This document shows, in pieces, positions 25,489 through 60,134 of a stretch of DNA of 64,000 nt. The notes beneath the pieces are model-generated. The model was not told the DNA's origin. It did not search any database and worked only from the letters and a program-made list of their open reading frames with translations. The stretch is from Caballeronia turbans. Lineage in GTDB: Bacteria; Pseudomonadota; Gammaproteobacteria; Burkholderiales; Burkholderiaceae. The stretch covers positions 47,989 to 111,988 of the forward strand of contig FCOD02000019.1 of NCBI GenBank assembly GCA_001544655.2. Direction: 5' to 3'. Within the stretch, counting starts at the first letter, position 1; each line of letters begins with the position of its first letter. The position numbers and the translations under genes were made by a program.

Positions 25489-25506
25489 GGTGAGAGGTTT
25501 CGGGAG
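25489..25506 (+). repeat. 18-bp bipartite motif, copy 1
   Basis: Reads GGTGAGAGGTTTCGGGAG, preceded by AAA. It shares exact spacing with seven other intergenic copies in this window. It lies 53 bases upstream of the AEC transporter gene. Confidence 0.65.
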
Positions 25507-25736
25507 TGTGGCGACGGTGAGCCGCTGTGTGAACGCGTGGCTCACTCTTGGCCGGATCATCCGGACCGCGAAGCATTTCCAGCAGCTCATTCACAGTATC
25601 AAGTGGACGATGCAAGTCATTGTTCTTTAACGCATTCGGCTTTTCTCTAGGTCGCAGCGGTCTGTATCCGGCGCACCGTGCGGCCGGTCTTCAAAAACCG
25701 GCGTAGCTTGCAGAGATATCGGCATGCTTTGCCAAA

Positions 25737-25754
25737 GGTGAGGTGATTCGGGAG
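25737..25754 (+). repeat. 18-bp bipartite motif, copy 2
   Basis: Reads GGTGAGGTGATTCGGGAG, preceded by AAA. It lies about 190 bases upstream of the lipocalin gene. Confidence 0.65.
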
Positions 25755-25861
25755 CCGCGCCAATGCGTTATCGCTGGGTCGCGGCTATCGAATAAAACCC
25801 AATCAGGACAGCCACTTGCGCCTCGCGCCGATGTTCGCCCACGACACGATACGCGGCGGAC

Positions 25862-25879
25862 GGTGAGGAAATTCGGGAG
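25862..25879 (+). repeat. 18-bp bipartite motif, copy 3
   Basis: Reads GGTGAGGAAATTCGGGAG. It lies 64 bases upstream of the lipocalin start, 125 bases after copy 2. Confidence 0.65.
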
Positions 25880-25943
25880 TCACATATGGACGGAACGAAG
25901 CTTGCTGCTCGTTCTGCCCTCGCACTTCTCACTCATCGGCGAC

Positions 25944-26513
25944 ATGAAAATCGGAAGACCCTGGGCATACGGCGCGGCGGCGCTGGCTTTGATCGGCGGC
26001 ATCGTCACGCTCGCTGCGTGCGCATCGAACGGAGCGCGCAAGAGCGGCAACGACGATGTGCCCGAACCGTCGAAGGCCGTCGATCTCGACCGCTATCTCG
26101 GTCAGTGGCACGAGTTCGCGCGCTACGAGAACCGCTTCGAACGCAACTGCGAAGCCGTCACGGCGAATTACGCGCGTCGCGAGGACGGGCTCATATCCGT
26201 CGTCAACGCGTGCAGGCAAGGCGACGTGAACGGTCCGTACCGCTCGGCGGAGGGGCGCGCGAAGATCGTCCCGGGATCGAACGGGACGAAGTTGAAGGTG
26301 TCGTTCTTCGGCCCGTTCTATGTCGGCGACTACTGGATCCTCGATCACGCCGACGATTACACGTGGTCCATCGTCGGCGAGCCCACCGGGCGTTATCTCT
26401 GGATCCTGACGCGCGAGGCGAAGCCTTCGGCCGAGTTGCGCCGCACGCTCATCGAGCGCACGCGCGCGCTCGGGTACGACGTCACGATGCTGCGCGAGAC
26501 GCAGCAAGGCTGA
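25944..26513 (+). CDS. blc: Bacterial lipocalin (Blc-type outer-membrane lipoprotein)
   Basis: A 189-residue lipoprotein that binds lipids or fatty acids at the outer membrane. The lipobox ends at Cys26 (TLAAC). The lipocalin signature GxW is present in YLGQWHEFARYENRFE, followed by the second conserved region GDYWILDHADDYTWSIVG and the third, TGRYLWILTREAKPS. The ATG at 25944 is chosen because it yields the signal peptide; the frame is open further upstream but covers motif copies 2 and 3. It is convergent with a small lipoprotein gene 4 bases away. Confidence 0.9.
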   Translation: MKIGRPWAYGAAALALIGGIVTLAACASNGARKSGNDDVPEPSKAVDLDRYLGQWHEFARYENRFERNCEAVTANYARREDGLISVVNACRQGDVNGPYRSAEGRAKIVPGSNGTKLKVSFFGPFYVGDYWILDHADDYTWSIVGEPTGRYLWILTREAKPSAELRRTLIERTRALGYDVTMLRETQQG

Positions 26514-26517
26514 GCGG

Positions 26518-26784
26518 TCAACTTCCCTTGCAGGCGATGAGCAGCGCGTTCTGATTGTTCTCGGTCGACTGCCCGAGCACGTCATAACCGCTCGGGCAGA
26601 GCGCCTTCGCGTTGTCGGTGCAGTTGCTCCAGCCGCTGTAAGTGGGGCACTGAATCTGCTGTGTCGGGCGACCATCGGCGGAAAAAAGCGGCGGTGCGCT
26701 GCTGCATCCGGCAAGCGCCCACGCGCTGCCCGCAAGCATGACTGAAAGGCCGATTGCCCTGCCGATTCTCATCCCGCGCTTCAT
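26518..26784 (-). CDS. Small lipoprotein of unknown function
   Basis: An 88-residue protein with a lipobox at Cys27 (ALAGC) and four more cysteines in the mature part (QCPTYSGWSNC, ALCPSGY, IACKGS), which probably form disulfides in the periplasm. I do not recognise the family. The ATG at 26784 has GGGGTACGGG ahead of it; a second ATG at 26772 would also give a signal peptide. It ends only 4 bases from the convergent blc gene. Confidence 0.72.
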   Translation of the reverse strand: MKRGMRIGRAIGLSVMLAGSAWALAGCSSAPPLFSADGRPTQQIQCPTYSGWSNCTDNAKALCPSGYDVLGQSTENNQNALLIACKGS

Positions 26785-26875
26785 CCCGTACCCCTTTGAT
26801 TCTGGTCGTTATTTTCGATTTCGGGAGTATGCCACGCGAAGCTTTCGCGCCGTTTGGCCGGTGCGCAAAAGCCCT

Positions 26876-28330
26876 TCAGACGGCGATGCCGAGCGCCGCG
26901 ATCTTCTTGTACAGCGTCGCCCGCCCGATACCGATTTTCTCCGCCGCATCCGCGACGCGTCCGCCGCTTGCGCGCAAGGCATCGGAGAGAAAGCGCCGTT
27001 CGAAATCGGTCATCGCGTCCGCATAGGACAGGCTCGGCGGGCCGCCCGCTTCCTGCGCCGCCGGTTCCGCCTGGGCCGCGATCGCAACGCGCCCCGCGTC
27101 GATGAACGCGCTCAACGCGCGGGCGTCGATGTGCTCGGTTTCCGAAAGCATCAGCGCGCGCTCGAGCGTGTTGCGCAACTCACGGACATTGCCCGGCCAG
27201 GAATACGCCTCGAGAAGTTGCAGCCCGTCCTTATGCAGCACGAAATGGCCGACATGCCCTGGTCGCGTGTCGGCGGACAGATCTTCGAGAATCGCGTAGG
27301 CAAGCGCCTCGATATCGCCGAGCCGGTCGCGCAACGGCGGCGCGTGAATCGTGAGCACGTTCAGGCGATAGAACAGGTCCGCGCGAAAGCGGCCCGCCGC
27401 GACGAGCGCGGGCAGATCGGCGGACGTCGCCGCGATGATGCGCACATCCGCGCGCACGATGCGATTCGAGCCGAGCGGCTCGAACTCCTTGTCCTGCAGC
27501 ACGCGCAGGAGCTTGCCCTGCAACGGCAGCGGCATGTCGCCGATTTCGTCGAGAAAGAGCGTGCCGCCGTCGGCCAGCTCGAACTTGCCGACGCGGCCCT
27601 TTCGCTCGGCGCCGGTGTATGCGCCCGCCGCCGCGCCGAAAAATTCGACTTCGAGCAGCGTGTCGGGAATGGCCGCGACATTGACCGTTACAAGCGGCTT
27701 GCCGGCGCGCGTCGATGCGCCGTGGATCGAATGCGCGAGCAGTTCCTTGCCGGTGCCGGTCTCGCCGAGCAGGAGCACCGGCGAATCGACGAGCGCCGCC
27801 CGCCGCGCCTGGCGCTTCACTTCGAGACTGGCCGGACTCGTGCCGACGAAGCTCGAAAACGTGTATTTCGCGCGTCGCGCCTGCGCGAGCGACTGACGCG
27901 TCGCGATGAGTTCCTGCTGCACGCGCGAGTAATGCGCGAAAAGCGGCGTGAGCGCCTTCATCTCGTCGAACAGCGCAAAACCGATCGCGCCGATGATCGC
28001 GCCGGACTCGTCCCTGAGCGGCAGGCGCGTGACCACGAGCGGCTCGCGATCGGTTTCCAGCACGTCGAGCAGAATCGGCTTGCCTGTAGCGACGACTTCG
28101 CGCATCAGGCTGTTTGGAATCACCGCTTCGCAGTCGAGGCCGATCGCGTCGAGCGGATCGTCGAATCCGAAACGCGCCGCATAGCGCTTGTTGATCCACA
28201 CGACGCGCGCATCGGCATCGACGATGAAAGTGCCCTCGCTCAGATTCTCGAAGGTTTTGAAAAGCGACTCCATCGCGCGACGCATGACGTCGCTATAGTC
28301 GAGGGGCACGTTGATCCAGTCGTTGCGCAT
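26876..28330 (-). CDS. Sigma-54-dependent activator with PAS domain (HbcR-like)
   Basis: An enhancer-binding protein of 484 residues. It has an N-terminal PAS domain (residues 20-130), an AAA+ domain with Walker A GETGTGKE, the sigma-54 contact loop GAYTGA (a common variant of GAFTGA), Walker [12 protein letters not shown] and [10 protein letters not shown], and a C-terminal Fis-type helix-turn-helix ([21 protein letters not shown]). It is divergent from a GntP-type permease and bdhA, the same arrangement as the 3-hydroxybutyrate regulator HbcR of Pseudomonas. Three palindromes and a sigma-54 promoter lie in the intergenic region, so direct control of the permease gene is very likely. Confidence 0.9.
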
Positions 28331-59355: not shown

Positions 59356-59408
59356 TTTTGCGCGCTGCCGCACATCGTGGCCCCGTTATCGGCGTCGTGC
59401 GCGTCCTG

Positions 59409-59425
59409 CTTAAGCATTGCATAAG
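59409..59425. promoter_or_regulatory. QseB/PmrA-type box 2
   Basis: CTTAAG at 59409-59414 and CATAAG at 59420-59425 are spaced by five bases, one mismatch from box 1. It lies about 60 bases before the gene at 59488. Confidence 0.6.
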
Positions 59426-59487
59426 CTTCGTCCCCGCACTATACCGTCGAGCGCGCCGATTCGCGGCCGTGCGGCCCGGAGATGCCG

Positions 59488-59877
59488 ATGCGATCGTCCA
59501 CTCTTGCTTCCCTGCGTGCGAATGCGGTGCTGATCGCCTGGTGCATCGCCGCGTCGGATGCCGCGTGGCTCACGGTCTGCGGCTGCGCGGGCCACGTGAA
59601 TGCGCTCGGAAGTACCGCGGTGCGCCTTGCGACTCTCGCGAGCGCCGCGGGCATCGTGCTCGTCGTGCGGCGCATTGCGAGGCTCGCATTCGATGCCGCC
59701 CGTTCGGCACGCCGCATCGCCTGGGCTTCGGACAAGCTCGTGATCGACGGAGCCTGCCCGGGCGACTGGCTCGTGCAGCTTCATGTGGAACTTCATCCCG
59801 CCGGCTCCCGGCTCAGCGGCGCGCAGACCTGTCCGCGCGCCGCGGCGTCCTGCAGAGTGCCACGCGGTCGGGCGTGA
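59488..59877 (+). CDS. Small membrane protein, hypothetical
   Basis: A 129-residue protein with one or two hydrophobic segments (ANAVLIAWCIAASDAAWLTV at about 10-30 and LATLASAAGIVLVVRRIA at about 48-65) and five cysteines, two of them near the basic C-terminus. I do not recognise the family. The ATG at 59488 has GGAG at good distance; the ATG at 59482 does not. A QseB/PmrA-type box lies upstream and a strong terminator downstream, which supports a real, regulated gene. Confidence 0.6.
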   Translation: MRSSTLASLRANAVLIAWCIAASDAAWLTVCGCAGHVNALGSTAVRLATLASAAGIVLVVRRIARLAFDAARSARRIAWASDKLVIDGACPGDWLVQLHVELHPAGSRLSGAQTCPRAAASCRVPRGRA

Positions 59878-59903
59878 ACTCGGAACTCGCCCGACCACCT
59901 TCG

Positions 59904-59930
59904 CCCGGCCTCTCCGCCGGGTTTTTTTTT
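59904..59930 (+). terminator. Intrinsic terminator after the small membrane protein gene
   Basis: CCCGGC at 59904-59909 pairs with GCCGGG at 59916-59921 and is followed by nine T. Confidence 0.9.
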
Positions 59931-60003
59931 CGTCCACGGTAGTTTCCTCACGCGACGATACACATGCCTTTCATCGCAATTTCAATGCGCATGCGTTCGC
60001 TTG

Positions 60004-60020
60004 TCTAAGCATCTCTTAAG
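60004..60020. promoter_or_regulatory. QseB/PmrA-type box 3
   Basis: TCTAAG at 60004-60009 and CTTAAG at 60015-60020 are spaced by five bases. It lies in the 280-base region before the MarR-GNAT gene, which otherwise shows no gene. Confidence 0.5.
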
Positions 60021-60116
60021 GTTTGCGAAGGCAGGCTTCGGTTCTCGACACGCATTCGAATCACTGCGCTGTGCAAGGCAACTGTGGAGATCCATTCGCA
60101 CGCGATCGCGGCTAAA

Positions 60117-60134
60117 GGTGAGCATTTTCGGGAG
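60117..60134 (+). repeat. 18-bp bipartite motif, copy 8
   Basis: Reads GGTGAGCATTTTCGGGAG, preceded by AAA. It lies about 80 bases before the MarR-GNAT gene and 19 bases before the first of the twin operators. Confidence 0.65.

Follow-up and report, generated by a model that had tools for sequence, protein, structure and literature searches.

The window considered here, a stretch of 64,000 nucleotides forming the final 64 kb of one contig (FCOD02000019.1, designated C74) of the Caballeronia turbans genome (G000), contains nine exact copies of a bipartite element, GGTGAG-N6-CGGGA, where 0.01 would be expected from shuffled sequences (Table 1). A first-pass annotation of this DNA had listed eight copies, and the pattern is present at each of those positions, on the strands and with the fixed spacing described; the AAA noted immediately before five of the eight is likewise there, as is the identity over 18 bases of the two minus-strand copies at 49187 and 49270. 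One more exact copy (15721, minus strand) was overlooked, and since it lies within hpnD, the claim that the element occurs only between genes does not hold. The reported nearness to start codons is true of the copies at 25489, 35280 and 60117, which lie approximately 4-55 bases from a predicted start codon, but not of the 49187/49270 pair, which sits 22-122 bases 3' of the stop codon of an IclR-type gene. Across the whole genome (7.35 Mb in 120 contigs) there are 27 exact copies, as against one match for the reversed pattern; contig C74 has nine of these, contig C46 has 13, and the other five are on further contigs.

The copies on contig C46 mark a replication origin that lies outside the window (region L028). 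Specifically, ten exact copies in a single orientation, together with eight copies bearing one mismatch, form the main array within about 1.35 kb directly upstream of an open reading frame of 464 residues. The product is a Rep initiator matching Rep3_N (PF01051, E 2.2e-11) and Rep3_C (PF21205, E 7.3e-10), both above cut-off, and it is the sole Rep3_N match in the genome. Genes for KfrA_N, ParB and ParA proteins neighbor rep, the array upstream of rep being next to parAB, and no DnaA box (with up to one mismatch) was found near the origin between positions 7,000 and 15,000 of the region. By sequence, the single PDB match to this protein up to E 0.1 is Pi (E 0.003). A predicted model, which is rough (mean predicted local distance difference test score 69, predicted template modeling score 0.42), matches RepE, RctB domains 2-3 and Pi; the 49 PDB matches at E<=0.001 all belong to initiators of this kind, many being RepE co-crystals titled only "isoreticular co-crystal", and template modeling scores are low (0.19-0.26 by query length). 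The remaining three exact copies on C46 are one inside rep and two neighboring copies at the end of an integrase-type gene. The latter two (8044 and 8127 of the region) are oppositely oriented and 83 bp apart, and this pair is found again, at 81-84 bp, in all eight Caballeronia regions compared.

The iteron of Burkholderia cenocepacia chromosome 2 has been published as ctCCCGAAAAacCTCACCTtt, the reverse complement of which is AAAGGTGAGgtTTTTCGGGag (Du et al., 2016; PMC4948915), and the motif of the window matches the latter. Because the published iteron is its reverse complement, and because arrays of the motif stand upstream of rep, the motif is, to judge from these sequences, almost certainly the iteron of the second chromosome, that is, the presumptive site of its Rep_3 initiator. 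A scan of named genomes returned 216 relatives of Rep. The 80 that ranked highest were taken as loci; they carry the labels Caballeronia, Paraburkholderia, Burkholderia and Trinickia, and chromosome 2 of Paraburkholderia xenovorans LB400 is among them. Among these 80, all 78 loci with at least 2.9 kb of upstream DNA have 7-16 exact copies ahead of rep (median 11.5), and the named B. cenocepacia chromosome 2 has nine within 1.2 kb. Exact copies were found in none of 15 other Rep_3 regions within the stretches fetched, and in three regions one-mismatch copies were found: five or six upstream of rep in L235 and L236, whose Rep proteins are 38-40% identical, and one in L271. The iteron sequence is thus, on the match to the printed consensus, already known, contrary to the first-pass statement that no described element fits. 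Two suggestions made alongside that statement, a site for an asymmetric DNA-binding protein and a replicon-specific marker, come out right in substance, the element being a chromosome-2 iteron and the presumptive binding site of its Rep_3 initiator. There is no pointer to a third, an RNA element in leaders, given that the sites fall on both strands, 5' of genes, 3' of genes and inside a gene, although no RNA fold was run; a transposon, an RNA leader and an unknown element were all dropped as candidates once the origin array and the published consensus had come to light.

Comparison with relatives, the genus assignments of which are inferred wherever a genome is cited by G number, demonstrated that the copies outside the origin are conserved. 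Of eight relatives compared, four (G002, G004, G017 and G035) match all nine window sites exactly, in the same order and orientation. When the window is aligned with these four, chosen from the eight for that reason, the half-sites of the eight intergenic copies are 100% identical, whereas identity falls to 72% in the spacer and to 46% in the flanks (within 40 columns). From this pattern, the outlying copies look selected. As the genomes are related by descent, genome counts here and below do not equal independent events.

Table 1. Outlying iterons of the window and associated features. Positions refer to the window unless preceded by a region number.
Feature	Position	Strand	Basis or remark
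Distal iteron embedded in the hpnD coding sequence (TCG GTG AGA ATA TTC GGG AT)	15720..15737	-	motif match
hpnD, presqualene diphosphate synthase, host of the embedded iteron	15311..16159	-	TIGR03465 E 3.5e-105 (above cut-off), PF00494
Distal iteron, triple no. 1	25489..25506	+	motif match and conservation in relatives
Distal iteron, triple no. 2	25737..25754	+	motif match and conservation in relatives
Distal iteron, triple no. 3	25862..25879	+	motif match and conservation in relatives
Sigma-54-dependent regulator adjoining the triple	26876..28330	-	
Distal iteron, 44-bp pair	35280..35297	+	motif match and conservation in relatives
Distal iteron, 44-bp pair	35324..35341	+	motif match and conservation in relatives
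Distal iteron, 83-bp pair	49187..49204	-	motif match and conservation in relatives
Distal iteron, 83-bp pair	49270..49287	-	motif match and conservation in relatives
Distal iteron, nearest of the window's copies to the origin	60117..60134	+	motif match and conservation in relatives
Second iteron arrays, 23-bp spacing	L206:9317-9587 (11 exact), L208:9870-10070 (9 exact)		~145-170 kb from chromosome-2 rep
Chromosome-3 origins with a chromosome-2-type iteron	L209, L223-L226, L228-L230, L257-L262, L264		

The copy embedded in hpnD offers a further view of this constraint. It reads in frame as the codons TCG GTG AGR NTH TTC GGG. Of 23 initiator-bearing genomes that have hpnD, 20 carry it in exact form, the full set being nine Caballeronia genomes, 15 other genomes and G137, 25 in all, of which G063 and G116 gave no hpnD match at E 1e-30. 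Within the 20 genes carrying the exact site (those of G096, G083 and G107 are left out of the count), AGA and AGG make up only 22 of 658 arginine codons, yet 20 of those 22 fall in the iteron column; similarly, GGG makes up 53 of 253 glycine codons overall and 20 of 20 at the iteron position. In 15 hpnD-like sequences from genomes that have no Rep relative, or none above about 40% identity, AGR does not occur at the iteron column: nine have arginine there, encoded by CGN in every case, and GGG is used in four of the 15. The flanks of the hpnD copy are 91% identical across the five aligned genomes. In the named B. cenocepacia record for chromosome 2, hpnD likewise contains a copy, which lies 13.2 kb from the start of rep. 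As to the gene's surroundings, hpnN, a squalene-hopene cyclase gene and hpnD occupy positions 7046-17972 of the window, and hopanoid genes are found near the chromosome-2 origin in several genera, on differing sides of it; in both Mycetohabitans genomes hpnD lies some 176-178 kb from that origin.

The outlying copies share a replicon with the origin array. Where a relative has a contig spanning the region, the orthologs of the window's sites and the array lie on one replicon in fixed order, at 18.5-67.3 kb from the start of rep in G002, 16.7-68.7 kb in G004, 24.2-73.4 kb in G017 and 24.2-72.4 kb in G035, and in near-complete genomes the outlying copies are on the same replicon as the array. 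A set of 13 genomes (G048, G050, G100, G201, G141 and four Vallotia genomes being left out) contains 344 exact sites. Origins account for 147 of these and their neighborhood, defined as 5-100 kb out on the iteron side of rep or 2-100 kb out on the rep side, for 99; another 47 lie no more than 300 kb away, 21 are on the rest of chromosome 2 and 30 on other replicons. The corresponding densities are 39.5 per Mb near the origin, 1.3 per Mb on chromosome 2 beyond 300 kb and 0.51 per Mb on other replicons, with 27 matches (0.33 per Mb) for the reversed pattern in the same 13 whole genomes. Eleven of the 13 genomes have 5-21 sites within 100 kb of the origin, and all five Caballeronia have 7-10. Initiator sites beyond the origin are thereby concentrated near it on its own replicon, which is the placement that titration or a datA-like function calls for. 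With the exact pattern, no conserved site resembling crtS on chromosome 1 stood out above background, as the 30 matches off chromosome 2 are to be set against the reversed-pattern density and conservation on chromosome 1 was not tested.

Taken together, these data favor an explanation in which a chromosome-2 iteron has outlying copies that restrain re-initiation, and this explanation as a whole is reasonably probable; that the outlying iterons do restrain re-initiation of chromosome 2 is slightly less probable. By extrapolation from RepE and Pi, the two winged-helix domains of Rep would each read one half-site. Rep would bind the outlying copies too. Forks in B. cenocepacia have been reported to move at approximately 33 kb/min (Du et al., 2016; PMC4948915), and at that speed the window's sites would be duplicated some 0.5-2.2 minutes after initiation. 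The doubled sites may then titrate Rep, handcuff with the origin iterons, or both, such that a freshly fired origin would be hindered from firing a second time in the same cell cycle.

Several observations weigh against this explanation. Firstly, the window and the origin are on two contigs in the source genome and are joined solely by synteny with relatives. Secondly, conservation has its gaps: some window sites are absent or moved in G034, G039, G040 and G048, outlying sites within 100 kb number just two in G185 and none in G096, and the exact iteron is gone from the hpnD of G096 and of two Vallotia genomes, G083 and G107. Thirdly, a predicted start codon is no more than about 55 bases from three of the window's loci, which leaves room for gene regulation. 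Additionally, distances differ by genus, the Caballeronia window sites lying 17-73 kb from rep and the Burkholderia cluster by the same sigma-54 regulator gene approximately 145-253 kb away; because of this variation, early duplication would not be equally true everywhere. Finally, in Vibrio cholerae, deletion of the strongest outlying initiator site had no growth phenotype (PMC3937223; outlying sites of this species are also treated in PMC6090056).

Iteron initiators often repress their own promoters. The outlying sites could accordingly be operators at which Rep, or another protein reading the same sequence, regulates adjoining genes, and the short distances from the copies at 25489, 35280 and 60117 to start codons suit such a role. 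One copy, however, is in the middle of hpnD and the 49187/49270 pair follows a stop codon, the number of sites near the origin is kept in most genomes, and in the stretches (as opposed to whole replicons) compared from other genera an ortholog of a window gene stands beside a site just at the hpnD and sigma-54 loci; on balance, regulation of neighboring genes is unlikely to be what maintains the sites. A similarly unlikely alternative is that the sites organize the origin domain of chromosome 2 without titration, through looping, through segregation or by delaying one fork with a Rep-DNA roadblock. In five Caballeronia genomes 43 of 44 near sites are on one arm, the iteron side of rep, and origin-proximal sequence was slightly less abundant on one arm of B. 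cenocepacia chromosome 2 (Du et al., 2016; PMC4948915); in the eight genomes from other genera, though, near sites are split 42 to 13 between the iteron side and the opposite side, and Du et al. prefer occasional unidirectional replication as the cause of the asymmetry.

Two further alternatives appear very improbable. Neutral debris from old duplications of the origin array would fit the shortness of the element, positions that vary between genera and the loss or movement of some copies in some species, but not half-sites that are invariant while flanks and spacer have diverged, nor the strong codon constraint in hpnD, nor a density on other replicons close to that of the reversed-pattern control. 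A ligand other than Rep, for example a KfrA- or ParB-like protein, is suggested by the KfrA_N and ParB genes flanking the origin, but every locus with sufficient upstream DNA has an array of this sequence ahead of rep, the sequence is that of the published chromosome-2 iteron, one-mismatch relatives precede two Rep_3 genes of 38-40% identity, and parS-like sites beside parAB, located with a parS word, differ from the iteron in sequence.

The outlying iterons have counterparts in known systems. Among the closest are the iterons of B. cenocepacia J2315 chromosome 2, which share sequence, replicon type and position beside a repA-like gene with those described here; the parts of that paper covered contain no analysis of conservation, of the hpnD copy, of clustering on one arm or of copies at chromosome 3 (Du et al., 2016; PMC4948915). 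On V. cholerae chromosome II, which likewise has extra initiator sites across tens of kb near a plasmid-type origin, RctB sites spread over 74 kb, roughly 40 kb from the origin, titrate RctB and thereby inhibit replication (Baek and Chattoraj, 2014; PMC3937223). Site and initiator sequences differ between the two systems, although RctB domains 2-3 are related in fold, and V. cholerae has 39-mers and a crtS site on chromosome 1, of which no clear iteron-type counterpart was found here. The DnaA sites at E. coli datA are a functional analogy, being initiator sites off the origin that restrain re-initiation (PMC3937223), but they are DnaA boxes serving a DnaA-dependent origin and are not homologous. 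Bipartite sites for plasmid initiators are also known from plasmids F (RepE), R6K (Pi) and P1 (incA). In these plasmids extra iterons set copy number via titration and handcuffing, and the control iterons are close to the origin rather than tens of kb away.

Within open-licence papers, exclusive of supplements, outlying chromosome-2 iterons were treated nowhere past a legend in Du et al., which does not establish their absence from print, no paper combined iterons with Paraburkholderia or chromid, and none was found on handcuffing outside the origin. What is known in detail of how each chromosome of a multi-chromosome bacterium starts replication once per cycle derives mainly from V. cholerae, and a 2026 survey states that further timers are still to be found (PMC13342612). 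The sites reported here are conserved candidate control sites with exact coordinates across a large bacterial family; one is protected by rare codons in an unrelated gene, and a second set occurs at most of the Burkholderia chromosome-3 origins examined.

This second set was identified at 15 of 18 chromosome-3 origins, the 18 being all genomes of group g10 (inferred to be Burkholderia) with a second Rep of about 36% identity. In each of the 15, an exact chromosome-2-type iteron is located 1.6-1.8 kb ahead of the chromosome-3 rep and oriented toward it, and 13 have a second copy, exact or with one mismatch, at a distance of 33-34 bp; the origins of G118, G164 and G209 lack an exact copy. When the 18 origins are aligned, the half-sites are 58-87% identical as compared with 33-38% between and beside them. 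Seven named records of Burkholderia chromosome 3 were also compared. The exact site is present in those of B. cenocepacia, B. pyrrocinia (two records), B. stagnalis and B. arboris, and absent from the other two, both B. multivorans (L310 and L311), in which the distance from rep to the next annotated gene is approximately 1 kb shorter. A chromosome-2-type iteron at chromosome-3 origins is therefore common but not universal.

The consensus published for chromosome-3 iterons differs from the chromosome-2 iteron (Du et al., 2016; PMC4948915); a narrow version of that chromosome-3 pattern proved too narrow to give a match and a looser one matched. Because the two consensus sequences differ, the chromosome-2 Rep is suggested as the reader of the site. 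It is possible, if rather less than an even prospect, that the Burkholderia chromosome-2 initiator reads a dedicated site at the chromosome-3 origin and so couples chromosome-3 replication to itself, and that this site would form, together with the outlying chromosome-2 iterons including the hpnD copy, a timing network spanning several replicons. Like crtS, the chromosome-3 site would be a link between replicons, here a candidate one, and it is placed at the receiving origin.

Turnover of the sites among genera is illustrated by two Burkholderia genomes, G150 and G229, which have a second array of 11 and nine exact iterons, respectively, spaced at 23 bp save for one gap in G150. The array most likely corresponds to the "140 kb" cluster of Du et al. 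(2016), and it is near the ortholog of the sigma-54 regulator that flanks the triple of the window. A site lies within 1.5 kb of this ortholog in Burkholderia G127, G150 and G229 and in Caballeronia G039, G040 and G048, and none does so in G034 and G201. A second origin at the tandem array was considered and rejected, as no second Rep of the P0001 type is present there. In Vallotia, chromosome 2 persists as relics of 61-72 kb having one to four exact sites, all within approximately 1.3 kb of rep if the G107 replicon is circular. Two such relics (G083:C2, region L249, and G107:C2, region L250) keep rep, a few origin iterons and hpnD, the iteron in hpnD having decayed.

Genome structure varies in other ways among the relatives. 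In G201 the chromosome-2 rep and iterons are on a 6.68-Mb contig (C1, region L213), the genome being 6.7 Mb in total, which would fit a fusion of chromosomes 1 and 2 or else an assembly error. Four genomes of the same genus as the window (G005, G019, G046 and G051; 3.8-4.2 Mb) have four to seven exact iterons and no match to the chromosome-2 Rep at E 1e-20, reflecting either loss of Rep or assembly gaps. Lastly, copies with AT-rich spacers on contigs C30 and C50 of the source genome are in low-GC DNA, and that on C50 is beside phage-type genes: it is an isolated exact iteron (L030:5659-5676) near an S24/HTH regulator, an HNH endonuclease and a DpdA-like gene, in what is probably a phage region.

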